DNA of 64,000 nt from Polaribacter gangjinensis (GTDB lineage Bacteria > Bacteroidota > Bacteroidia > Flavobacteriales > Flavobacteriaceae): positions 2,435,501 through 2,499,500 of the forward strand of contig NZ_CP150662.1 of the NCBI RefSeq assembly GCF_038024125.1. The letters are read 5' to 3'. The notes under the pieces are model-generated. The model did no database searches. It was not told the origin of the DNA and saw only the letters and a list, made by a program, of their open reading frames with translations. Made by a program: the position numbers and the translations under genes. Below are positions 33,901 through 61,931 of the stretch, one piece after another. The stretch's first letter is position 1; every line of letters starts with the position of its first letter.

Positions 33901-34011
33901 ATTCGCATTGTTGTGAAATAGAATTGAAGACTCATATTGAGCCTGTATTAAATTAGAAACTAACAAAAGTAAATAAATTGAAAAAGTATTTACATAATTC
34001 ACTCTTTTCAT
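30931..34011 (-). CDS. T9SS-exported two-beta-helix protein (pectate-lyase-like), FN3 linker
   Basis: The 1026-residue product has a signal peptide ending LIQAQ and a large right-handed beta-helix of pectate-lyase-like type (about 55-520, opening with DGNHIPDFSFAGY and GDNTAHIQAAINEV). A fibronectin-III domain (about 530-620) and a second, smaller beta-helix (about 625-945) follow, then a T9SS type A sorting domain. The second helix begins YFVKATGLNTNSG and ends SPIDFGSDGNDAGSWDS, a module shared with the genes at 38545, 41500 and 42972. The first helix may be a polysaccharide lyase or hydrolase, but I see no family-specific catalytic set. It diverges from the SARP-like regulator, and operator-like repeats lie 81 bp upstream. 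It probably forms the left end of the PUL. Confidence 0.85.
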   Translation of the reverse strand: MKRVNYVNTFSIYLLLLVSNLIQAQYESSILFHNNANQLVYVSDKDGNHIPDFSFAGYKNGEAALPNVAVVKQISPIAGDNTAHIQAAINEVGALPLNANGHRGTLLLLPGEYRINGVLTINKSGVVLRGSGDGQDPSSNTILIGVGNTPSERTLITIGTNNKSGFRAEVAGTRKDITSPYIPAGSRTFEVTDASVFNVGDNIIIKHPSTTKWLEVIENGGVGSDSPWMPGEIDLVFNRHITKIDGNKIQVATPIYDVLDRSLSQSYVYKFQGTSQIKECGIENLRIFVESSGVTSRNHIKICINMVGVDNSWVKNVTALRMSFSGVKFDEATRCSVVNTKVLEVHGPISGGWRYNFNVEDHCNNILFDNCTASDGRHSFVANGASDVNGIVFTNCSSTGDYTSSESHRRWGQGMLFDNISWRNTRAGFILGLHNRGDYGTGHGWTLTNGVAWNIDAPANKIVVQKPPIGQNYAIGCIAAYVNANGPFLKPAGYIEGTGRNLKITSLYKAQLNDRKTFGILPDSPGKLVVNNYKFSETEKFVELTWHDISIEETNYILERSLDGVNFQTIATLPANTETYTDTNLQQGNYYYRVKAKNSIGTSPASNTVQTSDFKLQTTYFVKATGLNTNSGLSEDNAFFTISHAVSAASEGDKIVIIGSVNQYNEVILDKSLSIEGRADAVLKPVGIKRMYNISTSGKTITFTNITFKDIVSDIQGAIVNVTVDANLFFDKCSFLNNTTSNNGGAIYASGTGDLTIINSLFKGNKATEGGAIFTTTNGRKITLSQSTFVENSATSKGGALCLLGNNAESSITNSTFFKNSFTGGVNQSKGGGILIEGTRPLTIENCLIYGNTATTANSDIGLSASVELNLVNSLTRKIVPLLGSNDTFSTSKIEADLNASNLRFDSSIGKVIYDVVETGVDSPIDFGSDGNDAGSWDSEYTLNIQEMNTKDFKIFYDKANKKLKIDFSDFENLNIEIYNILGTKVINLKNFLNGNSINVDHLSHGLYILIEKSSGKYFSKKFLIH

Positions 34012-34473
34012 AAATTACAAATTATAATATAATTAAACTTTATTGGTTTAGTAATTCTTTTAACCTTTCAAATAGCAAATAAATACTCAATTATTAATTT
34101 TACCTTAATTAATAATTAATATCAAAAAATTAAAACCATTTAGTCTTTAAATTATCTTATTTCAATTAAGGTCTAAAACTCAAAACAGATAATATAAAAT
34201 ACGTATGTAATTTCTTATTTAAGGCGTAAATTATCCTTTAAAAGCATAATTAATAAAACATATAAATTTCAAAAATTAAAAGAAGCAACAAAACAAAAAA
34301 TATATTTACTCTTGAATATTGAATAAATACTTTTTTTAAAAGTTCTCTTTAGTTTTCAAAATTTAAATATTTTATGCTACCCTATTTCTTTATATATTTG
34401 CTAAAATTATCTTAAAATAGCTATTTGAAAATTTAAAAAGTTATTTAATAATTATGCTTAATTTTCATTTAAA
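34012..34473. other. Divergent intergenic control region of the PUL
   Basis: This 462-bp, very AT-rich gap separates the beta-helix gene (leftward) from the regulator gene (rightward). It contains the operator-like repeats at 34092-34120 and a -7-like TATATTTG at 34393-34400 about 74 nt before the regulator start. No gene is seen in it. Confidence 0.6.
34092..34120. promoter_or_regulatory. Candidate SARP-type operator, site 1 (3 heptamers, 11-bp period)
   Basis: TATTAAT (34092-34098), CCTTAAT (34103-34109) and AATTAAT (34114-34120) are spaced exactly 11 bp apart with 4-nt gaps. The core is nearly palindromic, so orientation is ambiguous; it lies 81 bp upstream of the leftward beta-helix gene. 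This could be chance in AT-rich DNA, but the same layout recurs at four other PUL promoters. Confidence 0.45.
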
Positions 34474-37026
34474 TTGAATAAAAAATACTTTAGTTTATTA
34501 ATTCTTTTCTTTTTTTTTCAACTTCCTTTTTTTGCTCAAGAATATGGGCTAAAATTTAAGGGGCAATCCTTTTTATTAGACGAAAGAACAGAACTAAATT
34601 TAACACCAAACGATTTTTTTACACCAAACACTAATTTTAAAATTTCATTTGAAATTAAAATTGATAACAGTAAAAATATTGGATCTTTTGGTTATGTGTT
34701 TAGAATTATAAGTAAAGACAATAAAAATATTGATCTTCTATTAAGTAATTTTCCTTTTAAAAAAGAATTTACACTTTTAGTTGACAATATAAAGACACTC
34801 ATTTCTCTTGATAAATCAAAACTTACCAATGATAGTTGGGCTAAGATAGAGATTAGTTTTTTGTTTTCTGAAAATAAAATAATTTTTAAGTTAGATGATT
34901 TAGCCCCTATTCAAAAGAAACTTTCTTTTAAAAAAACGGATCAGTTTAAATTATTTTTTGGTGCTAATACCTATAAAGAATTTGCAAATAAGGACGTTCC
35001 AGAAATGCAAATTAGAGATATTAAAATTTATAAAAACAACAAACTAAACAATCATTTTCCTCTAAAACAATGTGGTAGTAAAACTACTATTGATATTGTA
35101 GGTAATGGAGAGGCTCAAGTTATCAATCCAGAATGGTTATTATGTAAACATCAAAAATGGAATTTAGATTTTTCTTCAGAAACTGATGGTACACAATTAG
35201 TTACTGCCAATGAAAAAGAAGAATTACTATATTTAGTTAATAATACTTCCTTATTAATATATTCCATAGAAAACCAGACAATTAAAAAAATACTCTTTAA
35301 AAAACCAATAAATTTAACTTCGGATTATCGATTAGTTTACAATACCAATGACCAAAAAATATATTGTTACCTGAGTGAAAAACAACTTTTGGCAGTTTTA
35401 GACCCAATTTCTGGAGAATGGACTAATGATGGTATTTTTGATATTGGACCTAGTAAAAAAATTTATACCATGCACAATAGCATTTTTACTAAAGATGAAA
35501 ATGCCATTTATATGATCGGTGGTTATGGTCAGTTTAAATATTTTGATGATGTATTTAAACTCGATTTACATACACAAAAATGGGAAAAACGCATATTAAA
35601 AGATAGTACTTTTAAACCAAGATATTTAGCAGGAAGTGATATATTAGGTGATACTATTTACATATTAGGTGGATATGGCAGTCCAACAGGTAGTCAATTA
35701 ATGAGCCCTAAAAGTTATTTTGATTTTGTAGCATATAATATAAAAACCAATGCTTTCAAGATAAAGTTTGAAATAAAAAAACATGTTCATGACATGGTAG
35801 TTGCCAATAGAATTTGGATCAATAAAAACAATAAAGACTACTACGCACTAACTTACGATAAAATAAAATTTGAAGGCTACTTAAAATTATTGAAAGGAAA
35901 TTTAAATTCTAAAGAATCATCCTATGTTGGTGATTCTATCCCATACAAATTCTTAGATATTAAGTCTTTTTCAAATATGTATTATATGCCAAAATCAAAA
36001 AAATTGGTAGTTTATAATTCTTATTTCAATAAAAAGGAAATATCAGAATTTACTATTTATTCGATTTCTTTCCCTGTAATTCCAATAACAAAAAACAACA
36101 CAAAACCCGTAAATTTATTATTTTGGTATGTGTCAATTTTTGGAATCATTGGAATTCTTGGAATAGGATCATTTATATATTTCAAAATAATTAGAAAAAC
36201 TAAAAGTCAAAACTCAAATAGTCCATTTATCGAAACAAAAACCAATGATGTTGAGGAAGAAGAAGAGGAGGTTATTGAATTCAATACTTCTACTAAAAAG
36301 CCAAATTATCAAATTATTTTCTTTGGAGGATTTCAAGTTTTTGATTCAAATCAGGTCGATATAACCAGTAAGTTTTCACCACTATTAAAAGAAATGTTTC
36401 TGTTAATATGGTTGTACACTTTTAAAAATAATAAAGGAATTTCATCAGAAAAATTAATTGAAATTTTATGGTTTGATAAATCATCAAGAAGAGCACAAAA
36501 CAATAGATCCGTAAACTTAACTAAATTAAAAGGGTTACTTAATCAGATAGGTGGTTGTAGTCTTAGTAAAGAAACTGGTTACTGGAAAATTGAACATGAT
36601 CATGAGTTATTAAAAACCGATTATTTTGAGTTTTACAAAATCACTGAAAATAAAAAAGAAATCAATTATAAGCGCATAAAAAGATTGATTGAAATAGCAA
36701 CAAAAGGACAATTTTTATTGAATGTAAATGTTGATTGGTTAGAACCATTTAAAGAAGCAACTACAGATAAAATTATAAATACATTAGTGACTTTTGCTGA
36801 ATCTTTTGATATCAAAAGCGACCCTGATTTTATTTTAAATTTAGCAGATTGTGTATTGAATTTTGATACTATCAATGAAGAGGCTGTTAAATTTAAATGC
36901 AAAGCATATAGTTATAAAGGCAATCATAGTTTGGCTTTGAGTACCTTTAAAAAATTTCAGAAAGAATATAAATATTTATACGCTCAAGACTATCCACTAG
37001 GGTTTAATAAAATATTAGAAAGCTAA
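34474..37026 (+). CDS. Membrane-spanning LamG/kelch sensor with SARP-like DNA-binding region
   Basis: Translation probably starts at the TTG at 34474, which begins a signal peptide (MNKKYFSLLILFFFFQLPFFAQ). The 850-residue product has a LamG/concanavalin-like beta-sandwich (about 23-215), a kelch-type propeller (about 220-530, with MIGGYGQFKYFDDVFKLD and ILGGYGSP), one membrane helix (about 547-570) and a charged linker. A winged-helix domain of OmpR/SARP type (about 610-705, FGGFQVF...SPLLKEMFLLIWLYT) and a TPR-like BTAD region (about 720-850) follow. The topology puts the sensor in the periplasm and the DNA-binding part in the cytoplasm, making a one-component PUL regulator. It is probably activated by a glycan fragment and is the best candidate to bind the 11-bp-period repeats found here. 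It could be mislabelled as a galactose oxidase because of the kelch repeats. Confidence 0.88.
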   Translation: MNKKYFSLLILFFFFQLPFFAQEYGLKFKGQSFLLDERTELNLTPNDFFTPNTNFKISFEIKIDNSKNIGSFGYVFRIISKDNKNIDLLLSNFPFKKEFTLLVDNIKTLISLDKSKLTNDSWAKIEISFLFSENKIIFKLDDLAPIQKKLSFKKTDQFKLFFGANTYKEFANKDVPEMQIRDIKIYKNNKLNNHFPLKQCGSKTTIDIVGNGEAQVINPEWLLCKHQKWNLDFSSETDGTQLVTANEKEELLYLVNNTSLLIYSIENQTIKKILFKKPINLTSDYRLVYNTNDQKIYCYLSEKQLLAVLDPISGEWTNDGIFDIGPSKKIYTMHNSIFTKDENAIYMIGGYGQFKYFDDVFKLDLHTQKWEKRILKDSTFKPRYLAGSDILGDTIYILGGYGSPTGSQLMSPKSYFDFVAYNIKTNAFKIKFEIKKHVHDMVVANRIWINKNNKDYYALTYDKIKFEGYLKLLKGNLNSKESSYVGDSIPYKFLDIKSFSNMYYMPKSKKLVVYNSYFNKKEISEFTIYSISFPVIPITKNNTKPVNLLFWYVSIFGIIGILGIGSFIYFKIIRKTKSQNSNSPFIETKTNDVEEEEEEVIEFNTSTKKPNYQIIFFGGFQVFDSNQVDITSKFSPLLKEMFLLIWLYTFKNNKGISSEKLIEILWFDKSSRRAQNNRSVNLTKLKGLLNQIGGCSLSKETGYWKIEHDHELLKTDYFEFYKITENKKEINYKRIKRLIEIATKGQFLLNVNVDWLEPFKEATTDKIINTLVTFAESFDIKSDPDFILNLADCVLNFDTINEEAVKFKCKAYSYKGNHSLALSTFKKFQKEYKYLYAQDYPLGFNKILES

Positions 37027-37046
37027 TTTTATATATTTTAAATTTC

Positions 37047-37075
37047 CATTAATCTTTTTTTAAGTTTAAATTAAT
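37047..37075 (+). promoter_or_regulatory. Candidate SARP-type operator, site 2
   Basis: CATTAAT (37047-37053), TTTTAAG (37058-37064) and AATTAAT (37069-37075) repeat at 11 bp. A -7-like TACTTTTT follows at 37079-37086 and the GH99-like start codon at 37113. Confidence 0.5.
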
Positions 37076-37112
37076 AGTTACTTTTTTCTTTGTTTTCTCA
37101 AAAATAAATATC

Positions 37113-38420
37113 ATGAGAAAACAATTTTATCTATTAATACTAGTCTTTTGTACTCATATCAATCTCCAAGCACAATCAAAGCATGGAAAATCAAGTAACT
37201 TTTCTAGTTATAAAGGATTGGTTATGGCAGGTTATCAAGGTTGGTTTAGAACTCCAGATGATGGGGCAAAGAAAGGCTGGGGGCATTATGGCGTGGGTCA
37301 AAAATTCGATTATGAAAACAATACCATCGATTTTTGGCCTGATGTAACTGAATATAAAAAGACCTATAAAACATCATTCAAATACCCAAATGGTGAGTAT
37401 GCAGCAGTTTTTAGCTCACTAGATAAAAGCACTACTGAACTCCATTTTTCTTGGATGAAACAATATGGCGTAGATGGTGTTTTTATGCAGCGCTTTTTCG
37501 GAGTAGCTAGGAATCACATAGAGACAAATAAACCACAAGATATCATTTTAAAAAATGCATTACAAGCGGCCAAAGAAAATAACAGAGCTATTGCTGTAAT
37601 GTATGATTTGTCTGGTTTAAAAGCAACTGATGAAGATTGTTCGGCGATTATCGAAGATTGGAAAATGCTTGTCAACCAATTAAAAATAACTAATCAAGGA
37701 GAAAACCAACCGTATTTATATCATAACAACAAACCCTTAATAGCTATATGGGGAGTTGGTTTTCCTGACAGGCCCTATGATACTCGAAAAATAGGAATTA
37801 ATCGCCTTATAGATTTTTTAAAAAACGATCCTGAATATGGAGGATGTTCCATTATGTTAGGCGTACCAACTTATTTTAGAGAATTAGATAAGGATTGTTT
37901 ACCCGATCCATATTTACACGAAATTATAAAATCCGTAGATATTTTAATGCCTTGGATGGTGCAACGTTTTACACCTTTAGTGCACAATATTGGTTCACAT
38001 TTGCGAGATCACATCATAGCAGATATCGCTTGGACAAAAACTAACAACCTAGACTATGTACCTGTGGTAACCCCAGGTTTTAGTTGGAGAAATCTGTCTA
38101 TGAGTACTAAAAAAACAGATAGATATACTGCTTATGGAGCCATACCCAGATTGGGGGGTAAATTTTACTGGGAGCAAATGTCAAATGCCATACTTGCAGG
38201 AAGTGAAATGATATATGTTGCCATGTTTGATGAAATAGATGAAGGTACAGCTATTATGAAAGTATCTGATAATCCACCTAATAGCGATAAAGCTTTTTTT
38301 GTTAATAATGATGGTGTGCCTTCAGACCATTATTTATGGTTAACTGGCTTGGGTGCAAAAATGCTTCGTAAAGAAATTCCTCTCCAAATTTTAATGCCCC
38401 AAAAAGTGAATGGTAATTAG
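37113..38420 (+). CDS. Secreted GH99-like (GH71/99-like) endo-alpha-mannosidase candidate
   Basis: The 435-residue product has a signal peptide (to NLQAQ) and a single GH99-like TIM-barrel domain: VMAGYQGWFRTPDDGAKKGW near the N-terminus, IDFWPDVTEY, and WMKQYGVDGVFMQRF. The likely catalytic pair is Glu374 and Glu377 in MFDEIDEGT, which has the ExxEGT pattern of the GH99 active site. Known GH99 enzymes cleave internal alpha-1,2-mannosidic bonds in yeast mannan or N-glycans. There is no T9SS domain or lipobox, so it is probably periplasmic. It stands alone downstream of operator site 2. It resembles the 54690 product and the middle domain of the 42972 product. Confidence 0.85.
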   Translation: MRKQFYLLILVFCTHINLQAQSKHGKSSNFSSYKGLVMAGYQGWFRTPDDGAKKGWGHYGVGQKFDYENNTIDFWPDVTEYKKTYKTSFKYPNGEYAAVFSSLDKSTTELHFSWMKQYGVDGVFMQRFFGVARNHIETNKPQDIILKNALQAAKENNRAIAVMYDLSGLKATDEDCSAIIEDWKMLVNQLKITNQGENQPYLYHNNKPLIAIWGVGFPDRPYDTRKIGINRLIDFLKNDPEYGGCSIMLGVPTYFRELDKDCLPDPYLHEIIKSVDILMPWMVQRFTPLVHNIGSHLRDHIIADIAWTKTNNLDYVPVVTPGFSWRNLSMSTKKTDRYTAYGAIPRLGGKFYWEQMSNAILAGSEMIYVAMFDEIDEGTAIMKVSDNPPNSDKAFFVNNDGVPSDHYLWLTGLGAKMLRKEIPLQILMPQKVNGN

Positions 38421-38461
38421 TTTAAAAATAAAATTTTAATTTTTTTTTCGAAAATTCATTC

Positions 38462-38490
38462 TGTTAAGATATTATTAAGAATTTATTAAG
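38462..38490 (+). promoter_or_regulatory. Candidate SARP-type operator, site 3
   Basis: TGTTAAG (38462-38468), TATTAAG (38473-38479) and TATTAAG (38484-38490) repeat at 11 bp; this is the most regular of the five sites and is not palindromic. A -7-like TAATTTAT lies at 38514-38521 and the start codon at 38545. Confidence 0.55.
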
Positions 38491-38544
38491 CATTGAAATG
38501 CAGATTTATGGCATAATTTATAAAACTAACAAAAACAATTAATT

Positions 38545-41121
38545 ATGAAAAAAAATACTTTTTTTACATTATGCTTTTCCTTTATATTGGGGAGCATATT
38601 TGCCCAACAAACAGTTTGGGTTAATGCAAGTGCTACAGGTGCTAATGATGGTACAAGTGAAGCGGATGCTTACACTACTTTTACAGCTGCTTTAGCTGAT
38701 ATCAACTCTAATGGTGATGTTTTGAGGGTTGTAGGTACCATAGCTGCTGGATCTCAAAATTTAAGTGCCAAAAATTTTCAATATACTATAGAAGGTGATA
38801 CCAACGGGTCTACACTTACAGGAACGGATGCAGCTACTAGAATGTTTACAATTAGCTCTACATCTGTTGGTCAAAACGTAACTTTTAAAAACATTACTTT
38901 TACAGGTTCAATAAATTCCACAGGAGCTGGTGGTGGTGTTTTCTATAGTAATCAGCCAAGTGTTACTTTAAATTTTGAAAATTGTAGATTTAATGGAAAT
39001 TCTTTAGCATTAGCTACTACAGCGGGGGGTGGCGCTCTTTGGGTTACTAATTCTACGTTAAATATTACTGATTGTCTTTTTAAAGAAAACACTGCCCTTC
39101 GAAGTGGTGGTGCTATTTATATTGGTATTAAAACTACTGCAACAATTACCAGATGTACTTTTTATAAAAATAAAACAACAGATACAAATACTGCATTTGG
39201 TGGAGCTGCTTTGTATGTTACTGGTGCTAGTCCTAATGGTCCTACTGTAAATGCCTATAATTGCACATTTTTTCAAAATACTATAGGACACACAAACCAA
39301 GCTTATTCAACAATTAGAACAGAAGGTGGAATAACAAAAGTATACAATTCGTTATTCAATGAAAATAAAGTGAATAATGGTACTGGTGGGCCTGGCGACT
39401 GGGGTTCTGCGGCTAGTTTAAGCTCTACTATTACTAATTGTGTTGGTCAATGGATTAATGGTAATGTGACTAATACAAGTTCAAATATAAATATTCTTAA
39501 TACACTTTTCTCGTCTAGCTTGATTTATGAAGATTTAGATGGTAAGGTTAATTACATTAATCCAAGTTCAATAACAGATGTAACCCCAATCGATTTTGGT
39601 AATGATAATAATGACGTAGGTTCATGGGATTCAAAAATCAATTTATTCAAAGGAACAACAGATTCAGATTGGGCAACAGGAAGCAACTGGTCATCAACAG
39701 CTGCACCAACTTCTTTAGAAAATGTAACCTTATTGTCTGATTCTCCTGCATTAGTAATAGGTGGCTCTACAAATGCAACTATTAACAATTTATCTGTAGA
39801 TGCTTCAAGTTCATTGACCATCAATTCAGGAGGTGTGTTAATTGTAAATGGAACTTCAACAGGAAATGTAACTTACAACAGAAATTTACCATCTACAAAC
39901 TGGTATTTGGTTTCTGCTCCATTAAATGGTGAAGACATGACAGACATGAGAGCAAATAATAGTTTTGCAACTGGAACAGGTTCAAATATTGGTTTTGCAT
40001 CATATACGCCAACTACAAATCAATGGAGTTATTTTACTACTGCATCAACAGATGCATTGGCAGCAGGAAAAGGTTTTTCAGCTAAACTAGGAAGCACAGG
40101 AAACCTTTCTTTTACAGGAACAATCAACACAGCTGATGTTTCTGTAGCTGTTTCAAATGCAGGAACAGGTTTTAACTTGATTGGAAATCCATTTACTTCA
40201 CATGTAAATAGTGCTTCTTTATTAGGCGATAATTCAGCTAACTTGGTATCACAAACTCTTTGGGTTTGGAATCAAGCAACTAGCAGTTATGATACTTATG
40301 TAACTCGAGATTCTTTTGTTTTAGCTCCAGCTCAAGGATTTTTTGTAAGATCATCAAACGGAACAAACATCAACATTGCTGAATCTTATCAAGCTTTAAC
40401 AGGTGGAACTTTCCAAAAATCATCAACTACAAGAACAGAAGTAAAATTGATGATGAACGATGGCTCAAATAATAGATTTGTAAAAATGTATTACTTAGAC
40501 AACGCAACCAAAGATTTTGACAATGGTTTTGACGGAGAAACGTTTGGAGGTATAGAAAATTCAGTGGATGTATTTACAAACTTAGTAGAAAACAACGAAG
40601 GTAAAAAATTCCAAGTACAATCATTACCAATTGCAGAAATGGAAACTATGATTGTTCCTGTTGGTGTAAAAGCTGCTGCTGGTAAAGAAATCACCTTTAC
40701 TGCTGATGCTATGAATTTACCTGGAGATACCAAAGTATTTTTAGAAGACAGATTGACAAATACCATTACTCGTTTAGATGAAGCAAATTCATCATATAAA
40801 GTAACTTTAAACGATGCTTTAAACGGAACAGGACGTTTCTATTTACACACAAAATCATCTGGAGTATTAAGTACTGATGAGGTTGTTTTACAAAACACAA
40901 GTATCTATGCAATCAACAACAATACTTTGAGAGTGGTTGGTTTACCATCAGGAAATGCGAATGTAAAAATGTACAACATTCTTGGAAAACAAGTGATGCA
41001 AACTTCTTTTAGTTCAACAGGAGTGAAAGAAATTTCATTGCCAAAATTAGCAACAGGAATGTACATTGTTCAATTAGAAACTGCTGCTGGTAAATTGAAT
41101 AAAAAAATCGTTTTAGAATAA
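38545..41121 (+). CDS. T9SS-exported beta-helix surface protein
   Basis: The 858-residue product has a signal peptide (to SIFAQQ) and a right-handed beta-helix of choice-of-anchor-Q type (about 20-365, with repeated GGGA/NCTFFQN-like turns, ending TPIDFGNDNNDVGSWDS). A long beta-rich region (about 370-780, with NWYLVSAPLNGEDM and GFNLIGNPFTS) follows, and then a T9SS type A sorting domain ending in a KLNKKIVLE tail. The beta-helix is the same module found at 30931, 41500 and 42972. No catalytic residues are recognisable; it may bind or cleave the PUL glycan at the surface. Operator site 3 lies 54 bp upstream. The tiny membrane protein at 41149 follows and may be cotranscribed. Confidence 0.85.
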   Translation: MKKNTFFTLCFSFILGSIFAQQTVWVNASATGANDGTSEADAYTTFTAALADINSNGDVLRVVGTIAAGSQNLSAKNFQYTIEGDTNGSTLTGTDAATRMFTISSTSVGQNVTFKNITFTGSINSTGAGGGVFYSNQPSVTLNFENCRFNGNSLALATTAGGGALWVTNSTLNITDCLFKENTALRSGGAIYIGIKTTATITRCTFYKNKTTDTNTAFGGAALYVTGASPNGPTVNAYNCTFFQNTIGHTNQAYSTIRTEGGITKVYNSLFNENKVNNGTGGPGDWGSAASLSSTITNCVGQWINGNVTNTSSNINILNTLFSSSLIYEDLDGKVNYINPSSITDVTPIDFGNDNNDVGSWDSKINLFKGTTDSDWATGSNWSSTAAPTSLENVTLLSDSPALVIGGSTNATINNLSVDASSSLTINSGGVLIVNGTSTGNVTYNRNLPSTNWYLVSAPLNGEDMTDMRANNSFATGTGSNIGFASYTPTTNQWSYFTTASTDALAAGKGFSAKLGSTGNLSFTGTINTADVSVAVSNAGTGFNLIGNPFTSHVNSASLLGDNSANLVSQTLWVWNQATSSYDTYVTRDSFVLAPAQGFFVRSSNGTNINIAESYQALTGGTFQKSSTTRTEVKLMMNDGSNNRFVKMYYLDNATKDFDNGFDGETFGGIENSVDVFTNLVENNEGKKFQVQSLPIAEMETMIVPVGVKAAAGKEITFTADAMNLPGDTKVFLEDRLTNTITRLDEANSSYKVTLNDALNGTGRFYLHTKSSGVLSTDEVVLQNTSIYAINNNTLRVVGLPSGNANVKMYNILGKQVMQTSFSSTGVKEISLPKLATGMYIVQLETAAGKLNKKIVLE

Positions 41122-41148
41122 TTTCAATCACTTAAAAAACTATATCAC

Positions 41149-41316
41149 ATGAAAAATCAAGATAAAAACACAGAAGAAATCACACGTAAAGAGGCCATCA
41201 AAAAAATAGGAACTTATGGCAAATATGCTGCATTAACAGCATTAGGCACCTATTTGATTTTAAATCCTAAAAAGGCACAGGCACAAAGTCCTACTGCGCC
41301 AGGTGATGGCTTTTAG
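41149..41316 (+). CDS. Small single-helix membrane protein (55 aa)
   Basis: An ATG at 41149, 27 nt after the previous stop codon, opens a 55-codon frame. The product has a charged N-terminus (ITRKEAIKKIG), a hydrophobic stretch (YAALTALGTYLIL) and a short Ala/Gln/Pro-rich tail ending PGDGF. It resembles a membrane anchor or a degenerate export signal. Frame, start context and amino-acid pattern look genuine. Its position suggests cotranscription with the T9SS beta-helix protein and perhaps a role in its handling. I do not know its function. Confidence 0.55.
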   Translation: MKNQDKNTEEITRKEAIKKIGTYGKYAALTALGTYLILNPKKAQAQSPTAPGDGF

Positions 41317-41340
41317 ATAATTTTAATAACTTAATTAATA

Positions 41341-41372
41341 TTCCCTTAGTTAGTAACTACTAGCTAAGGGAA
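41341..41372 (+). terminator. Hairpin after small membrane-protein gene
   Basis: TTCCCTTAG (41341-41349) pairs exactly with CTAAGGGAA (41364-41372) around a 14-nt loop. No T run follows, so it may protect the mRNA 3' end or terminate weakly. Confidence 0.5.
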
Positions 41373-41413
41373 ATTACCATAAAAGTTAAAAATTAAAAAA
41401 AACCTTTAATAGT

Positions 41414-41442
41414 TATTAATTAAAAATTAATCAAAAATTAAT
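41414..41442 (+). promoter_or_regulatory. Candidate SARP-type operator, site 4
   Basis: TATTAAT (41414-41420), AATTAAT (41425-41431) and AATTAAT (41436-41442) repeat at 11 bp. A -7-like TATTTTTA follows at 41453-41460, and the beta-helix gene starts at 41500. Confidence 0.5.
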
Positions 41443-41499
41443 GTTGTGTTCCTATTTTTATAACATTAAATTTCAAAATCAACTTAAAATATTTAATAC

Positions 41500-42876
41500 A
41501 TGAAAAAAATTACTTTTCTATTTGTAAGCATTTTAATGCTAATTAATTATCAAATTTTTGCAACTGATTATTATGTAAAGGCTGGTGGTTTAAACACTAA
41601 TTCAGGTTTAGATGAACAGAATGCGCTTTCAACAATCTCTGAAGCAATGAATAAAGCAATTGATGGAGATAGAATTATCATAATAGGTTCAATTAACCAA
41701 TCTGGGCAAGTTGCTATTTCTAAATCTGTTTCTTTTGTTGGTCAAAATAATGCAGTTATTACGGGTATTGATGATGGTGGTATTGCAAAAATGTATGTAG
41801 TAAATGCTGCTGCAATAACCGCATCTTTTTCAAACATAACTTTTACAGGAAGTATTAATAAAAACATAAGTCATGGAGGAGTCTTTTCGGTTACTGGTGA
41901 TTCAGATATTACTTTTACAGAGTGTGTTTTTGATGGAAATTCTATTTCAGGCTATTATTCTGGAGGTGCAATTTCAATTAGCAGTGGTAGAGTAACTATT
42001 GCAAATTCTTTATTTAAAAATAATACTGCAGGTAGAAGTGGAGGTGCTATAAGTGTATTTGCAAGCGTTGCAGTTCAACCTCAAGTTACTATCACAGGAA
42101 CTACTTTTTATAACAACTTAGCACAAGGAACGGGAAATTCTGATGGAGGAGGAGCTATTTTTGCTGAAGGAAATGCCAATGGAACAGTTTCAATTTCAAA
42201 CTGTACTTTTTTTGAAAATAAAATTACAAGAGATAATATAGATTATGCAGGTGCAATTAGATCTACAACCTTTTCTGTAACTGTAACTAATAGTTTGTTT
42301 TATAATAATAAAATTAATGGTGGAGCCGGAGCTTCTAGTGATTTTGGCTCTGCTCCTGCGGGAACACAATCGTTCACTTACTCTATTGGTGAGTGGATAA
42401 GTAACAATGTTGATACAAGATCTAATTTTATTTCTTTTGTAAAAGCAACTGTTGATCCAAGTGAAAAAGCAGCAGATTTAACAGCTTCTAATTTACGTTT
42501 TGAAGCTACTTTGGGTAAGGTTATTTATGATGCAGTAGATTCAGGTATAGATAGCCCAATTGATTTTGGGTCTGATGGCAATGATGCTGGTGCATGGAAT
42601 TCTGGCTATACACTTTCTTTAGAAGATTCAATACTTTTAAATAACCAATTGTCTGTATTTTATGACAGTAACTTAAAAAGTATTCAATTATTCAATTCCT
42701 TTACAGAGCCATTTACAACTGAGGTATATACAATTTTAGGTAGTAAAGTAATTGATATCAAGCCTATTGAAACTCAAAATTCCATTATAAATGTATCAAC
42801 TTTAAGAAATGGAGTCTATATATTGGTTGCAAAATTTAATGGAAAATCTATTTCTAAGAAGTTTGTAATTTATTAA
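41500..42876 (+). CDS. T9SS-exported single beta-helix protein
   Basis: The 458-residue product is the minimal form of the module shared in this PUL. It has a signal peptide (to QIFA), the opening YYVKAGGLNTNSGLDEQNA, right-handed beta-helix turns with GGAISI and NCTFFENK motifs, the closing SPIDFGSDGNDAGAWNS, then a T9SS type A sorting domain (about 385-458). It is closest to the second beta-helix of the 30931 product. With no extra domain, it suggests that the helix itself has the useful activity, either glycan binding or an unrecognised enzymatic one. Operator site 4 lies upstream and a terminator (42906-42935) downstream. Confidence 0.85.
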   Translation: MKKITFLFVSILMLINYQIFATDYYVKAGGLNTNSGLDEQNALSTISEAMNKAIDGDRIIIIGSINQSGQVAISKSVSFVGQNNAVITGIDDGGIAKMYVVNAAAITASFSNITFTGSINKNISHGGVFSVTGDSDITFTECVFDGNSISGYYSGGAISISSGRVTIANSLFKNNTAGRSGGAISVFASVAVQPQVTITGTTFYNNLAQGTGNSDGGGAIFAEGNANGTVSISNCTFFENKITRDNIDYAGAIRSTTFSVTVTNSLFYNNKINGGAGASSDFGSAPAGTQSFTYSIGEWISNNVDTRSNFISFVKATVDPSEKAADLTASNLRFEATLGKVIYDAVDSGIDSPIDFGSDGNDAGAWNSGYTLSLEDSILLNNQLSVFYDSNLKSIQLFNSFTEPFTTEVYTILGSKVIDIKPIETQNSIINVSTLRNGVYILVAKFNGKSISKKFVIY

Positions 42877-42905
42877 TGAAAAAGGAGAGTGAATTGGATA
42901 TGCGT

Positions 42906-42935
42906 AAAAAGGGATTTAATAAAAATCCCTTTTTT
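42906..42935 (+). terminator. Intrinsic terminator between beta-helix gene and sulfatase fusion gene
   Basis: AAAAAGGGAT (42906-42915) pairs with ATCCCTTTTT (42925-42934) around a 9-nt loop and ends in a T run. It lies inside the longest reading frame of the next gene, which argues that translation starts downstream at 42972. Confidence 0.8.
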
Positions 42936-42971
42936 AATAATATATACATATCAAAAACATATAAAACTAAA

Positions 42972-45900
42972 ATGAAGACCATATTACTTTATTTAATTTT
43001 TCTTTTAAATTCAGTTATTTCATTTAGCCAATCTCAACGTCCCAATATTGTATTCATTATAACGGACGATCAGAGTGCAATTACTTTAAGAGAATCAGAT
43101 AATCAAAACCAATCAAGACCTTTTGGTTTTAACGGAGATCCTAAAGTTTATACTCCAATTATCGATAATTTGGCTTCAAAAGGGATTGTTTTTAACAATG
43201 CATTTGTATCGACATCTATTTGTACCCCAAGTAGATATTCAATATTAACAGGAAAGTATGCAGGAAGATCACAAGGAAAAAGCTTTATGAGTAATTTTCC
43301 TTTGGGAAAGTTAAGTAGGGTGGCAAATAATATAGAGTTGGAAGAAAATATTACCAATCTTCCCAAATTATTACAATCTGTGGGTTATAAAACGGCTTTT
43401 ATTGGTAAATCTCATCTTATTGATCATGATATTTTGGAGACATACACTCAAGGTAAAAATGGTTTTATGGCATATTCTAAAACAGCTGATCCCTATAATA
43501 CGTCTGTGTCAAATGCTGTAAAATTTAATCATGAAAAATGGTCAAATCGCATGAAAGAATTTGGGTTTGATTTTGTAAATGCCTTTTATCCTGGAAATTT
43601 AAGAGAATTATTTAATGATGGTTTAAATATTCATAATGTTGAGTATAAGAATAAAGCAGTTTTAGATTTTATAGAAAATACTGGAGATGAACCATTTTTT
43701 ATCTATTACAGTGAAACCATTCCACATGGGCCAGCTCCTTATTGGACAAATAATAATGGATATTATGCAGGTTTAGATTCTGATGTTAATCTTACAGCAG
43801 AAGGGGTTTTGAATCAAGATTATTCGTATTTACCCTCAAGAAACCAAATTAAAAATGAGATAAATGGATTGTCAGGTAAGGATCCAAGGCATGCTTGGTT
43901 ACGTTGGTTTGATCATGCTGTTGGAGCTGTTGTAGAAAAGTTGAAAGCAAAAGGGAAATTAGACAATACAATTATTATAATTACCTCTGATCACGGAGAT
44001 TTTAATCATGCGAAAGCAACTAACTACGAAGGAGGTATAAAAGTTCCTTTGATGGTTTACTGGCCCAATGGAATTAAACATCCTAGAACTTACGGTGAAT
44101 TGGTTCAAAACATCGATTTTACTCCTACTTTTTTAGACTTTGCGGGTGTTACTTCAACTGGTGTTTCTTTAGATGGGAAAAGTTTAAAAAATATAATTAC
44201 AACAAATACTAATGATCCAATTCATGACTACCTTTTCTTTGAAATTGGATATTCTAGAGCAATAAGAACCAAAGACTGGAAATATATTACAGTTCGTTAC
44301 GACGACGCAACAAATACTAAAATTGCCAATGGGGGAACTTTTGCCGGACCAAATGGAACCCTAGTTCCATTGCCGTATTACATTCCAAATGTTTCTCTAG
44401 GAAGCTTAGGAGCGGCATCTTATCCATTGTATCATCAAAAAGATCAGTTATTTGATTTAACAAATGATCCTTTTGAAACCAAAAATTTATTTGACCTGCA
44501 TCCAGTAAAGTCAACAGAGATGAGAAATTTACTGAGAGAAAAGTTGCTTACTTTCACTAATAGGCCTTATCAAGAATTTACAAATACAAGTTTTGATTTG
44601 ACTGTTACTGGAACTGCAAACGAAACTACCTCAATCATAGGGAAGGTATTAGCAGGTTATCAAGGATGGTTTAATACACCCACAGATGGTGGAAATCGAG
44701 GATGGAATCATTACAGAGCAGCTAATGGAAAATTTGAGCCTGGATTTGCTACGATTGATTTTTGGCCAGATATGAGTGAGGCAGCTGCAGACGAAAAATA
44801 TGCAACATCTTTTACAAAAAAAGATGGTACTGTTGCAACTGTATTTTCATCTAGAAATGCAAAAACCATCAATCGTCATTTTAAGTGGATGAATGATTAC
44901 GGAATAGATGGTGTATTTTTTCAGCAATTTGCTTCGAATTTAAGATCAAATACGCCAAATCTTAAAGCCAATGATAAATTGGTATTAGACAATATCATTG
45001 CATCAGCCAAGACAAACAACAATAGATTGGTAAGTGTAATGTTCGATTTGTCTAATTCCAACGCAACAGGCACCATGGTTACTGATATTAAAACTTATTG
45101 GCAACAATTGGTCACAGAGCATGGTTTAAACACCAATACCCAAAGTCATTTATTAACGTACAAAAATAAACCTGTAGTTGCTATTTGGGGAGTAGGATTT
45201 AATAGAACGGACAATTACACTTTGAATGATATTCAAGAACTGATCAACTTTTTTAAAAATGATCCAGTTTACGGAGGTTGTGCTGTATTATTAGGCGTCC
45301 CAACAAGTTGGCGTACCTTAAATAACGATGCAACTTCAAATACACAATTGCATGATGTTATAAAATCAGCGGATATTGTACATCCATGGACAGTTGGAAG
45401 GTATGGCAGTTTATCATCAGCAGATACACATAAAAATATTATCGCATTAGATAAAGCATGGTGTGATGCAGAAAACTTATTATACATGCCTGTGGTTTTC
45501 CCTGGCTTTAGTTGGCAAAATTTAAAAAAGGACCAAGGACAAATATCCGCATTGAATAGTATTCCACGTTTAAAAGGAGAATTTTTATGGCGACAATTTT
45601 ACAATGCTATTTCATCAAATGTATCAACTATTTATGTAGCGATGTTTGATGAAATGGATGAAGGCACGTGTATTTTTAAAGTAGATGATAACCCACCCTC
45701 AAGTTCACTTACTCAGTTTACCAACTACGAGGGGTTACCTAATGATTATTATTTATGGTTGACAGGCAAAGCAGGAGAAACTTTAAGAGGCGAATTACCA
45801 TTGTCGAAAACCAAACCTTCTTATCCAAATTTAGTATTGCCAAATACCTATTATGTATCAGCAGATGGAGATGATAATAATACAGGAACAAATTTAGGAA

Positions 45901-47234
45901 CCTCATTTAAAACCGTTCAAAAAGGATATACTGCAGCCGATTCTGGGAATAAAGTAATTATTTCTGGAGATGTAATTCATAACTCCCAAACACAAATTAC
46001 CAAAAATATACATTTCGAAGGAATTTCAAATGCAACACTTAGACCAAATCAAAACAGACTTGGAACTGCAAGAATGTTTCATATTAGTGCCCCAAATTTA
46101 ACAGTTTCGTTTAAAGATATTTCCTTTTTAAATAATAAAGAAACAACAGTATCTGGAGCAGTTATCAATATGAATGCAAATTCAATATTGAATATTACAA
46201 ATTCAATTTTTGATGGGAATTCCACAATAGGCTCTACAAATAATGGAGGAGCCATACAATTTACAGAAGGAACAGTGACAATAACACAATCAATTTTTAA
46301 AAACAATACATCTAATGGAATTGGAGGAGCTATTTTTGGAACAGGTACAGGGGTTTTTACCCTTTCTGAGTCACTATTTGTTGGAAATTCATCTACAAAA
46401 CTTGATAGTGGAAATGGTGGAGCTATTTCAATTTCTGGAGACGGAAGAACTTCACTAATTACAACTTCAACCTTTTACAATAACAATGCTGTTTTTCAGG
46501 GAGGAGCTCTTTATTTTTCAGGTTTAAATAATGATTCAAAATTAAGAAATGTTACCGTTTTTGAAAATACTATTGAGACTGACAATCTAGATCGAGCAGG
46601 AGGAGTTCGTATTGAAGGAGGAAGAAATTTTGAAATTGAAAATTCTTTAATCTATAATAATAAGATTGATGTTTTGAACAGTAGTACAAAAATTTCTGAT
46701 TTGGGACATGCCAATGGAGCAGAAGTATCTGCAAATGTATCATTAATTTTAAAACATAGTTTATTGAAAGTTGTGTCACCACAAATAAATAACCCTATTC
46801 AAAATGATTTAAATATGAACTCAATTTTAAACGCTAATTTGACATCTTCTAGTTTATTTTTTAATGAATCAACAGGAAAAGTAGCATATATTTTAGTATC
46901 AGAAGGAGATCAATCACCAATAGGTTATGGAAGTGATGGTAATGATGTAGGTGCTTGGAATTCAGGTTTTGTGTTATCTACAGATGACCAAGATTTTTTA
47001 AAAGAAATATTTAAAATAACCTACAATACAAATGATAAAACTATAACTTTAATTAATAATTCTAATGAACAATTAAGTGTTGAAATCTTTAATATTTTGG
47101 GTATGAATTTATTTTCTAATAAAAAATTCACAACCAATTCAGTAATAGATGCTGCTAGTTTTAAAAAAGGGATATATATATGCAGGGTAAAATTTGCGAG
47201 TAAATGGACATCAATAAAATTTGTTATCTACTAA
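42972..47234 (+). CDS. Sulfatase / GH99-like / beta-helix fusion, T9SS-exported
   Basis: The start is the ATG at 42972 (signal peptide MKTILLYLIFLLNSVISFSQ); the frame extends to 42876 but contains a terminator. The 1420-residue product joins three modules. First is a type I sulfatase (about 22-540) with metal-binding TDDQ and the formylglycine motif C-T-P-S-R at Cys84. Second is a GH99-like domain (about 555-960: AGYQGWFNTP, FWPDMSE, likely catalytic Glu894 and Glu897 in MFDEMDEGT). Third is a right-handed beta-helix (about 960-1340) closing SPIGYGSDGNDVGAWNS, before a T9SS type A sorting domain. It would desulfate and cut a sulfated mannan at the cell surface, held to it by the helix. The sulfatase part resembles the partial gene at 63538. 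I do not know of a described enzyme with this exact order. Confidence 0.9.
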   Translation: MKTILLYLIFLLNSVISFSQSQRPNIVFIITDDQSAITLRESDNQNQSRPFGFNGDPKVYTPIIDNLASKGIVFNNAFVSTSICTPSRYSILTGKYAGRSQGKSFMSNFPLGKLSRVANNIELEENITNLPKLLQSVGYKTAFIGKSHLIDHDILETYTQGKNGFMAYSKTADPYNTSVSNAVKFNHEKWSNRMKEFGFDFVNAFYPGNLRELFNDGLNIHNVEYKNKAVLDFIENTGDEPFFIYYSETIPHGPAPYWTNNNGYYAGLDSDVNLTAEGVLNQDYSYLPSRNQIKNEINGLSGKDPRHAWLRWFDHAVGAVVEKLKAKGKLDNTIIIITSDHGDFNHAKATNYEGGIKVPLMVYWPNGIKHPRTYGELVQNIDFTPTFLDFAGVTSTGVSLDGKSLKNIITTNTNDPIHDYLFFEIGYSRAIRTKDWKYITVRYDDATNTKIANGGTFAGPNGTLVPLPYYIPNVSLGSLGAASYPLYHQKDQLFDLTNDPFETKNLFDLHPVKSTEMRNLLREKLLTFTNRPYQEFTNTSFDLTVTGTANETTSIIGKVLAGYQGWFNTPTDGGNRGWNHYRAANGKFEPGFATIDFWPDMSEAAADEKYATSFTKKDGTVATVFSSRNAKTINRHFKWMNDYGIDGVFFQQFASNLRSNTPNLKANDKLVLDNIIASAKTNNNRLVSVMFDLSNSNATGTMVTDIKTYWQQLVTEHGLNTNTQSHLLTYKNKPVVAIWGVGFNRTDNYTLNDIQELINFFKNDPVYGGCAVLLGVPTSWRTLNNDATSNTQLHDVIKSADIVHPWTVGRYGSLSSADTHKNIIALDKAWCDAENLLYMPVVFPGFSWQNLKKDQGQISALNSIPRLKGEFLWRQFYNAISSNVSTIYVAMFDEMDEGTCIFKVDDNPPSSSLTQFTNYEGLPNDYYLWLTGKAGETLRGELPLSKTKPSYPNLVLPNTYYVSADGDDNNTGTNLGTSFKTVQKGYTAADSGNKVIISGDVIHNSQTQITKNIHFEGISNATLRPNQNRLGTARMFHISAPNLTVSFKDISFLNNKETTVSGAVINMNANSILNITNSIFDGNSTIGSTNNGGAIQFTEGTVTITQSIFKNNTSNGIGGAIFGTGTGVFTLSESLFVGNSSTKLDSGNGGAISISGDGRTSLITTSTFYNNNAVFQGGALYFSGLNNDSKLRNVTVFENTIETDNLDRAGGVRIEGGRNFEIENSLIYNNKIDVLNSSTKISDLGHANGAEVSANVSLILKHSLLKVVSPQINNPIQNDLNMNSILNANLTSSSLFFNESTGKVAYILVSEGDQSPIGYGSDGNDVGAWNSGFVLSTDDQDFLKEIFKITYNTNDKTITLINNSNEQLSVEIFNILGMNLFSNKKFTTNSVIDAASFKKGIYICRVKFASKWTSIKFVIY

Positions 47235-47277
47235 AATTACATTTTAAAATCCCTCAATTATTCATTAAATAATAATC

Positions 47278-48453
47278 ATGGAAAACAAATTTCTTTTTTT
47301 CTTTTTCATATTTACAATAAACTTTTTTTCTCAACATTCTAATATTACTCTTAACGGAGTAATAATTGATTCTAATAAGAATACGGTTCCTTATGCTGCA
47401 ATTGGTATTTTATCAAAAGCTATGGGAACATCAAGTAATGATGATGGAGAATTCTTTTTAAAGTTAACTAGAGAAAATCTTTCTGATACTTTAACAGTAT
47501 CAAGTATAGGTTATAAAACTTTTAAAATTAAAGTTCAAGATTTCATAAATCAAACAGAAAAAATAATTGTATTAGAGGAGGAAGTAGTTTCTTTGGGTGA
47601 AATAACACTAATAAAACCGGATTATTATGTAAAAAAAGCGCTTAAAAATATTAAGAATACTACCCTAAGCTCACTACATCAACTTACTATCCTTTACAGA
47701 AGATTCTCTACCGAAAATAATACTCCAAGATTTTTAGTGGAACATTATATGCATGTTTTAGATAGAAGCTTGACTATTAATGAATTTCAAGAAGCATCGG
47801 TTTTAGAAATAAGAAAATCAGTAGATTATAGATATGTGAAGTTTAAACAAAATTTTCATGCAGCTGAGATGATTGCAAAACAAAATCCCCTTAGAGGAGA
47901 TTTTTATGCTAATGATTATAATTGGAAAGTTACTGGAGATTCTTCATATGATGGCGAAGAAATTATAATTGTTCAAGGAAATGAAAAAGTAAAACCAGGA
48001 AATTGGGTAAGGTTATATATTGGAGTAGTAACTTTTGGTATTTACAAACTAGAAAAATCTCATAACAATGCAACTTATATTTATAAAAAAGATAAAGAAG
48101 GTAAATTGTATTTAAGTTATCATAACCGAGAATTTAAATCAAAGGAACCAATTACACCTCATTTAAAAAACCTATTAAAATTAAAATCAAACACCATTGA
48201 CCTCTCATATAGACATGAAGCTATTGTGCTAGGTGTAGAAAAAGATTGGAAAAATATCAATATAAAATCCAATATAAAAGGTAATCAGTTAGATATGGGA
48301 GATTATAATTTGCCTTATAACGAGATGTTTTGGAATCATCTAAGTATGCCACCAGATTCAAAATTTTACATAAAAAATAAAAAAGAACTTGAATCAATTT
48401 TCGGTGTTCCGTTAAATATACAATACAAAGCTGTAAATAGTTCAAAAAATTAA
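47278..48453 (+). CDS. Carboxypeptidase-like regulatory domain protein
   Basis: The 391-residue product has a signal peptide (to FFSQ) and an N-terminal CarboxypepD_reg-like beta-sandwich (about 22-105: LNGVIIDSNKNTVPYAAIGI, SSIGYKTFKI). A C-terminal domain of about 280 residues of unknown function follows, common in Bacteroidota proteins of this layout. The N-terminal domain is the same kind found at the start of SusC proteins. It sits between the fusion enzyme and susC, 43 bp after the former, in the PUL orientation. It may be a periplasmic or outer-membrane accessory of the PUL; the precise role is unknown. Confidence 0.8.
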   Translation: MENKFLFFFFIFTINFFSQHSNITLNGVIIDSNKNTVPYAAIGILSKAMGTSSNDDGEFFLKLTRENLSDTLTVSSIGYKTFKIKVQDFINQTEKIIVLEEEVVSLGEITLIKPDYYVKKALKNIKNTTLSSLHQLTILYRRFSTENNTPRFLVEHYMHVLDRSLTINEFQEASVLEIRKSVDYRYVKFKQNFHAAEMIAKQNPLRGDFYANDYNWKVTGDSSYDGEEIIIVQGNEKVKPGNWVRLYIGVVTFGIYKLEKSHNNATYIYKKDKEGKLYLSYHNREFKSKEPITPHLKNLLKLKSNTIDLSYRHEAIVLGVEKDWKNINIKSNIKGNQLDMGDYNLPYNEMFWNHLSMPPDSKFYIKNKKELESIFGVPLNIQYKAVNSSKN

Positions 48454-48508
48454 AATTAATAATTAAATAGCTAACCTGAAAAGTCTATTTTTTACAATTA
48501 ATTGTATT

Positions 48509-48537
48509 AATTAACATAAAATTAATAATTTATTAAT
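48509..48537 (+). promoter_or_regulatory. Candidate SARP-type operator, site 5 (susC promoter)
   Basis: AATTAAC (48509-48515), AATTAAT (48520-48526) and TATTAAT (48531-48537) repeat at 11 bp. A -7-like TAATTTTC lies at 48542-48549 and susC starts at 48606. Extra out-of-phase ATTAAT copies at 48497 and 48506 show the background is rich in the core. Confidence 0.5.
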
Positions 48538-48605
48538 CACTTAATTTTCTTTTACACAAAATTTAAATCAACTTAAACTTAATTAACCATAATAATCAAA
48601 TAATA

Positions 48606-51842: not shown

Positions 51843-51853
51843 AAATAAAAAAA

Positions 51854-53590: not shown

Positions 53591-53600
53591 ATTGAAAATA

Positions 53601-54680: not shown

Positions 54681-54689
54681 ATTTTAAAA

Positions 54690-55976: not shown

Positions 55977-55985
55977 ATCCCCAAA

Positions 55986-58244: not shown

Positions 58245-58250
58245 AAAGAA

Positions 58251-60533: not shown

Positions 60534-60584
60534 CAACCATTTCATAGTAACACAAATAACAAAATCAATTTATTCAACTATTTT

Positions 60585-61886: not shown

Positions 61887-61931
61887 ATCTATTGCTTTTA
61901 ATTAAAATCTTTTATCTTTAAATTATAAATT

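Follow-up and report, generated by a model that had tools for sequence, protein, structure and literature searches.

We analyzed a 64,000-nucleotide stretch of the Polaribacter gangjinensis genome (GCF_038024125.1, NZ_CP150662.1, positions 2,435,501-2,499,500 of the forward strand; hereafter, the window) and found triple TTAA repeats with an exact 11-bp period ahead of genes of a polysaccharide utilization locus (PUL). Seven such triplets occur in the PUL, five in the window and two to its right. Sequence comparison and a structural model together make it very probable that they serve as operators for the membrane regulator of gene 34474, which is predicted to bind them and to switch on the PUL for mannan. 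From its recurrence across genomes, we predict that the triple repeat is a real, phylum-wide SARP-type operator in Bacteroidota.

Results

Triplets with an 11-bp period are concentrated in one PUL

The original prediction for this DNA had placed five triplets, spaced 11 bp apart, 37 to 81 bp ahead of start codons. All five are present and their spacing is exact. At the seven PUL sites, the start codon lies 37-81 bp past the last repeat, and the window sites span this whole range (Table 1). Of the 21 repeat units, 20 read TTAAK, the lone exception being the TTAAC at 48511 in operator 5. Operator 2 has an additional in-phase fourth TTAA at 37038. A TAnnTT-like -7 box had also been claimed at four sites. 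Counted from the first T, all five window sites have TT at offsets 41 and 42, but TTTG is found in only two of them.

Counting exact triples (three TTAA units at an equal period), we observed six starts at period 11 in the window. These make up the five sites, and all are intergenic and in the PUL; the other periods from 7 to 16 gave 0-1 each. The gaps before 47278, 60585, and 61932 had been said to lack the phasing, and there is indeed no exact triple in the window outside the five sites. The same had been said of the gap before 42972. No triple is there, but the gene really starts at 42876 and overlaps the preceding gene. A triple was present in 5 of the 21 intergenic gaps of the window, whereas 5000 dinucleotide shuffles gave no such gap in 4699 cases, one in 296, and two in 5, and never more.

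The whole genome (2.94 Mb) has 14 exact period-11 triples, 8 of which lie within the approximately 40 kb of the PUL (2469594-2509125). Counted as sites, 7 of 13 are in the PUL versus an expected 0.17 (Poisson p about 9e-10). When both gaps were left free at 5-9 bp, the 25 spacing combinations gave 123 starts in the genome. Since this is about 5 starts per combination, the period-11 count outside the PUL (6) is at background level.

The triple repeat is conserved around regulator orthologs

Comparative loci were obtained from an alignment of 48 proteins (P0001 and 47 others, taken from 120 of 419 homologs). They are the best 80 of 258 confirmed regulator relatives across Bacteroidota and comprise 1,558,046 bases. 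In these loci, we found 90 TTAA triples at period 11, whereas any other period between 6 and 21 gave 0-9. The 90 triples are spread over 59 of the 80 loci. The control tetramer AATT gave one triple at period 11; some of its counts elsewhere were high (24 at period 7). In an unbiased scan of tetramers, TTAA at period 11 came out on top with its 59 loci; no tetramer exceeded 11 loci at any other period between 8 and 15. None of the 90 exact sites is inside an open reading frame of at least 100 amino acids (aa), and for 81 of them a start lies no more than 250 bp away. Many of the loci have a GC content of 40-50%, and sites occur in such loci too.

We trained an operator matrix on the 54 of the 90 exact sites that have a single unambiguous gene direction; sites with a gene on both sides (30) or on neither (6) were excluded, and the window was left out. 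At scores of at least 18, the matrix identified 138 places in 70 of the 80 loci versus 1 in reversed sequences, the same loci having been used for both training and scanning. All 138 fall outside open reading frames of 90 aa or more, and 132 face a gene start within 400 bp. With the loci grouped by their record titles, a site at this score was present in every locus from Flavobacteriaceae (4/4), Mucilaginibacter (25/25), Pedobacter (8/8), other Sphingobacteriales (3/3), Dyadobacter (12/12), and Cyclobacterium (1/1), and in part of the Bacteroidales-type (8/10), Chitinophagaceae-type (5/11), and unplaced (4/6) loci.

The same matrix ranked the five window sites first, at the scores given in Table 1. 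Lower matches in the window were alternative readings of these five sites (21.4 to 15.0) and one match of 14.0 at 10664, and the reversed window had no match at 14 or more. For the six exact triples outside the PUL, the best matrix score per 3-kb locus was at most 14.1, and these six look like chance occurrences. Two of the exact triples in the genome are only 76 bp apart (L016:10262-10287 and 10338-10363; G000:C1:522263 and 522339); their matrix score is weak (14.1), and they are probably due to chance.

The repeats stand at a fixed distance from the promoter

The consensus of the 54 oriented sites is aTTAAT-caWTTa-TTAAT-nnTTTA-TTAAG, followed after approximately 10 bp by a -7 box at offset 36-43. 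TTAA itself is strongly preferred, as is T or G as the next letter of the unit. TAnnTTTG is the -7 consensus that was deduced for Bacteroides fragilis; work on Flavobacterium johnsoniae confirmed it (PMC7366714). Of the 54 sites, 30 have a TTTG starting at offset 40 and 8 have one at offset 41, which is 14-15 bp past the last TTAA in 38 of 54. Matches to at least five of the six letters of TAnnTTTG begin at offset 36 in 30 sites and at offset 37 in 12; in these 42, the last heptamer (aTTAAKn) ends 8-9 bp ahead of the box. With two units and TTTG as the anchor, the missing unit was TTAA in 53/64, 53/59, and 53/59 cases. The gap of 14-15 bp between the last TTAA and TTTG was found in 53 cases, and the seven other gap pairs tried gave 0-5 each. 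A fourth repeat was present upstream in 1/54 and downstream in 1/54. These results correct the original prediction: the unit is TTAAK, present as a rule in exactly three copies, at a fixed distance from the -7 box.

Repeats 2 and 3 appear to occupy the positions expected for the -33 element and spacer in a Bacteroidota promoter. Because they overlie these positions and the -7 box follows at a fixed distance, a bound protein would stand in for the -33 contact. Direct repeats at 11 or 22 bp in target promoters are a mark of the SARP family and are found here. In SARP activators, the 3' repeat is 8 bp from the -10 (PMC10936776), and the distance here, counted to the Bacteroidota -7 box, is 8-9 bp in 42 of 54 sites. 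The main operator of PimR has three heptamers with 4-nucleotide spacers (PMC5930380), as does the operator described here.

The regulator combines a predicted exported Kelch part with a SARP-like domain

The beta-rich part of the regulator, which is predicted to be exported and includes a Kelch propeller, comprises residues about 26-532. Because Kelch propellers filled the fold search with the full-length model, we modeled the cytoplasmic domain alone. The resulting model had a predicted local distance difference test score (pLDDT) of 93.2, and AfsR and EmbR were the top hits of its fold search over 229-232 residues, far above the others. An OmpR-type winged helix followed by an all-helical BTA domain is what distinguishes the SARP family, and the model has both; its fold is that of a SARP. 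Searching the sequence of the cytoplasmic domain against PDB chains returned nothing relevant. Pfam at E 0.001 identified Kelch families only in the regulator, one of two distant homologs matched BTAD at E 0.0015 (below the cutoff), and source databases label some orthologs "DNA-binding SARP family transcriptional activator."

Other regulator types fit less well. Pfam found no histidine kinase, receiver, or AraC-type domain of the kind expected in a hybrid two-component system, and the model has no room for one. Nor was a receiver found ahead of the winged helix, as in the OmpR/PhoB type; a propeller, a transmembrane (TM) helix, and a loose linker precede it, and BTA-type helices follow it. 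The SARP-like reading of 34474, which the original prediction had drawn from sequence alone, is supported by the match of the model to AfsR and EmbR, by the association of the operator with orthologs, by its absence from the 22 loci of more distant homologs, and by a reverse search that returned regulator genomes (see below).

We also considered whether the regulator gene is autoregulated and rejected this: none of the 138 matrix matches faces the regulator gene, and the sole triple between 34012 and 34474 is approximately 354 bp ahead of 34474.

Predicted operators co-occur with the regulator and differ with its recognition helix

For the reverse search, we scanned 299 genomes of the Flavobacteriaceae family with the pattern TTAAK-N6-TTAAK-N6-TTAAK-N12..15-TTTG and used the backward pattern as a control. 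A match was found in 14 genomes, with two or more only in four: that of P. gangjinensis (4), G123 (5), G169 (3), and G180 (3). All four are among the seven genomes with a close regulator relative (Fisher 1e-7), and their matches lie on the same contig as the regulator, within about 55 kb. We read the neighborhood of some of these relatives, 8 to 80 kb each, and found exact triples near the regulator in G123 (4), G180 (4), G170 (2), G169 (2), and G024 (1). Strong lone operator matches are present at L177:1501-1546 (G261) and L168:1501-1544 (G014), and no close regulator relative was found in either genome.

The repeat is absent around distant homologs whose match covers the DNA-binding half of the regulator: 22 such loci (446,663 bases) had no period-11 TTAA triple and no matrix score of 16 or more, and the reversed control had 3. 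The recognition helix reads NNRxVNIxKL in the TTAA clade versus NTRGTNIQNLR- or NNRSTQIKEIR-like sequences in most of these 22 loci. In 12 of them (L063, L145-L149, L151-L153, L155, L157, and L158), we observed TTACCCC-N5-TTACCCC instead, with a period of 12, a weaker in-phase third unit, and TT at offset 44-45; the first unit is TTACCCT in two of the 12. TTACCC pairs in the distant loci number 12 at period 12 and 2 at period 18, and no other period between 8 and 23 gave any. Three extra TTACC pairs at period 12 fall inside open reading frames. The TTACCCC repeats stand just before the gene that follows the distant SARP-like membrane regulator, and the two such genes tested encode Gfo/Idh/MocA oxidoreductases. 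As the scan that revealed this class covered the very loci in which it was then counted, and the promoters seem to belong to one type of gene, its independent cases are fewer than the count.

The target genes suggest a sulfated mannan as substrate

The predicted operators, the parts of the regulator, and the target genes are listed in Table 1. The unit that begins at 48606 continues to the right of the window (L015) with sulfatases, an esterase, and a mannose-6-phosphate isomerase. The 199-aa protein encoded behind one of the two right-hand sites has no Pfam match. An FGE-sulfatase gene (L015:12449-13381) lies near these two sites. The sulfatase/GH99-like fusion at 42876-47234 has a type IX secretion system (T9SS) tail and is perhaps akin to the Sulf1-GH195 fusion reported for Polaribacter (GH, glycoside hydrolase).

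In the 80 loci, 131 genes stand behind sites, and their Pfam domains include GH92 (31), GH3 (19), TonB receptor plug (19), DUF5703 (15), GH65 N (6), sulfatase (4), and beta-helix (4), among others; the proteins had been shortened to their first 330 residues, so that late domains may escape this count. Besides the regulator, the most shared neighbor clusters are, judged by their representatives, sulfatase (54 loci), GH92 (47), SusC (36), GH3 (24), SusD (23), and DUF5703/GH95 (18).

The cluster looks built to digest sulfated mannan. It resembles the PUL for C6-sulfated alpha-1,3-mannan of Polaribacter and Ochrovirga pacifica, with sulfatases, GH92, and a sulfatase-glycosidase fusion (PMC13063451). 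Because of this resemblance and because the PUL holds GH92, GH99-like enzymes, sulfatases, and a mannose-6-phosphate isomerase, the ligand of the regulator is probably a mannan product. The 80-locus set includes an O. pacifica record (L073), and G180:C16 carries operator sites.

TABLE 1 Predicted operators, -7 elements, regulator parts, and target genes (window positions unless a contig or locus is named)
Feature	Position	Strand	Description
Regulator gene	34474..37026	plus	850 aa, TTG start; hydrophobic N terminus, exported beta-rich part, TM, linker, SARP-like domain
Regulator TM helix	36115..36195	plus	Residues 548-574; helix in model, basic residues after it; predicted topology
Cytoplasmic SARP-like domain	36307..37023	plus	Residues 612-850; OmpR-type winged helix, then all-helical BTA/TPR-like part
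Predicted operator 1	34093..34119	minus	TTAAT-N6-TTAAG-N6-TTAAT; would serve gene 30931-34011, 81 bp to ATG; matrix 30.2
-7 element 1	34076..34083	minus	TTTATTTG; position by consensus
Predicted operator 2	37049..37075	plus	TTAAT-N6-TTAAG-N6-TTAAT; ahead of 37113, 37 bp to ATG; matrix 32.2
-7 element 2	37085..37092	plus	TTTCTTTG
Predicted operator 3	38464..38490	plus	TTAAG x3; ahead of 38545, 54 bp to ATG; matrix 23.9
-7 region 3	38500..38507	plus	GCAGATTT; weak
Predicted operator 4	41416..41442	plus	TTAAT x3; ahead of 41500, 57 bp to ATG; matrix 27.4
-7 region 4	41452..41459	plus	CTATTTTT
Predicted operator 5	48511..48537	plus	TTAAC, TTAAT, TTAAT; ahead of susC 48606, 68 bp to ATG; matrix 24.4
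-7 region 5	48547..48554	plus	TTCTTTTA; weak
Right-hand site	C1:2508369		48 bp ahead of GH92 gene (L015:7088-9319)
Right-hand site	C1:2509100		38 bp ahead of 199-aa gene (L015:9461-10060)
Secreted protein	30931..34011	minus	1026 aa; T9SS sorting tail, polymorphic-membrane-protein repeat; operator 1
GH99-like protein	37113..38420	plus	435 aa; PF16317 27.6 bits, below cutoff 33; operator 2
T9SS-tailed secreted protein	38545..41121	plus	858 aa; operator 3
Target unit	41500..47234	plus	T9SS-tailed protein 41500-42876, overlapping sulfatase + GH99-like fusion 42876-47234; probably one transcript, from the overlap; operator 4
Target unit	48606..63554	plus	SusC, SusD, WbsX/GH99-like, GH99-like, GH92, GH92, major facilitator superfamily (MFS), sulfatase; putative operon, from spacing; operator 5

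Discussion

Several observations weigh against our interpretation that the triplets are operators of the regulator at 34474. The -7 matches are weak at window operators 3 and 5, and 16 of the 54 oriented sites have no TTTG at offset 40 or 41. Ten of the 80 loci, six of them Chitinophagaceae-type, have no site scoring at least 18. The 80 loci include 25 from Mucilaginibacter and 12 from Dyadobacter, and their sites are for this reason not independent. The Pfam winged-helix (Trans_reg_C) and BTAD families matched 0 of 48 orthologs at E 0.05, and a search with the isolated domain at E 1 gave neither. A single pattern match each is present in ten family genomes that lack a close ortholog, the backward control giving single matches in 13 genomes; of the ten, five have a matrix score of at least 18, two of them strongly (L177, 34.2; L168, 26.1). 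Finally, G256 has a relative of 28% identity with a similar recognition helix, yet no exact triple in 40 kb.

Could the sites be real operators of a shared regulon but bound by a different winged-helix regulator of the OmpR/PhoB type, encoded elsewhere? Such response regulators are likewise typically associated with direct repeats at 11 bp, and the strong lone sites in G261 and G014 would fit such a protein. However, sites accompany an ortholog of 34474 in 70 of the 80 loci and again in the reverse search, and they are missing where the recognition helix of the regulator differs. The representatives of the ten most shared neighbor clusters are not DNA-binding by Pfam, which also misses the DNA-binding domain of the regulator itself. 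We consider a different regulator unlikely.

It is less likely still that the bound protein is a repressor. The inferred overlap of the repeats with the -33 region means that binding could block polymerase, but the position is the one that SARP activators occupy relative to the -10 (PMC10936776), with 8-9 bp here in 42 of 54 sites. Unit 2 also takes the place of the TTTG of the -33 element, so that the promoters look activator-dependent. Least likely of all, and very improbable, is that strong PUL promoters carry the repeats as a structural trait (A/T-rich, UP-element-like, or curved DNA) without a specific regulator: the GC content of the window is 31.8% and A+T makes up about three-quarters of its intergenic DNA, but only period 11 is enriched, AATT has one triple at that period versus 90 for TTAA, TTAA followed by T or G is preferred and persists in loci of 40-50% GC, the 22 distant-homolog loci have promoters and no triple, and the whole genome has only 14 exact matches. 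The AT-rich background, the caveat attached to the original prediction, is answered by the period and reversed-sequence controls and by these higher-GC loci; the AATT and shuffle controls likewise rule out a chance origin of the triplets in AT-rich DNA.

We therefore return to activation by the regulator at 34474. In the mechanism that we propose, the exported Kelch part would sense a sugar product outside the inner membrane, and the signal would cross the single TM helix to the cytoplasmic SARP-type domain. Three SARP domains would then bind side by side on TTAAK-N6-TTAAK-N6-TTAAK, probably one per 11-bp turn. Once bound, the regulator would make up for the absent -33 contact and, in the manner of AfsR, recruit RNA polymerase. 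The outcome would be activation of the PUL with its secreted T9SS proteins, GH99-like and GH92 enzymes, sulfatases, and SusC/D operon.

SusR, hybrid two-component systems, and extracytoplasmic function (ECF) sigma/anti-sigma pairs couple an outside sugar signal to PUL transcription in Bacteroidota. Unlike these, the regulator described here has no kinase, receiver, AraC-type, or sigma domain detectable by Pfam. EmbR is not known to be membrane-bound, unlike this regulator. The Mycobacterium tuberculosis EmbR (PDB 2fez) further differs in having an FHA domain (PMC10936776). There is a close likeness to the Streptomyces SARPs AfsR and PimR, with which the system shares the predicted ODB and BTA fold, tandem direct repeats at 11 bp, and a last repeat 8 bp from the -10 or -7 (PMC10936776, PMC5930380). 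Unlike in AfsR and PimR, the SARP domain is C terminal on a membrane sensor with an exported Kelch part, its domains are unseen by Pfam, and its Bacteroidota promoters have a -7 TAnnTTTG, three repeats as a rule, and PUL targets. Among open-access titles and abstract openings (subscription journals and preprints lay outside this scope), no publication linked SARPs to PULs or Bacteroidota, and the whole word "regulator" is absent from the main text of the mannan-PUL paper (PMC13063451).

With somewhat better than even confidence, we propose that one-component membrane SARPs form a class of Bacteroidota PUL regulators. In each subclade, the recognition helix would set the heptamer, with a period of one turn: TTAAK at 11 bp in the Kelch clade and TTACCCC at 12 bp in others. 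Three units (the third degenerate in the TTACCCC class), a fixed distance to the -7, and a sigma adaptation replacing the -33 would be common to the class.

The finding gives a defined operator, spacing rules, and a promoter geometry for membrane regulators in sugar-utilization loci across Bacteroidota, so that targets can be predicted from sequence alone. It also provides what is likely to be a control element so far missing from the diatom mannan PUL, which is studied in the context of marine carbon cycling. It suggests that SARP-type activation, here coupled to a membrane sensor, extends beyond Actinomycetota, and the two operator classes are a first basis for working out a recognition code and for building inducible promoters in Bacteroidota.

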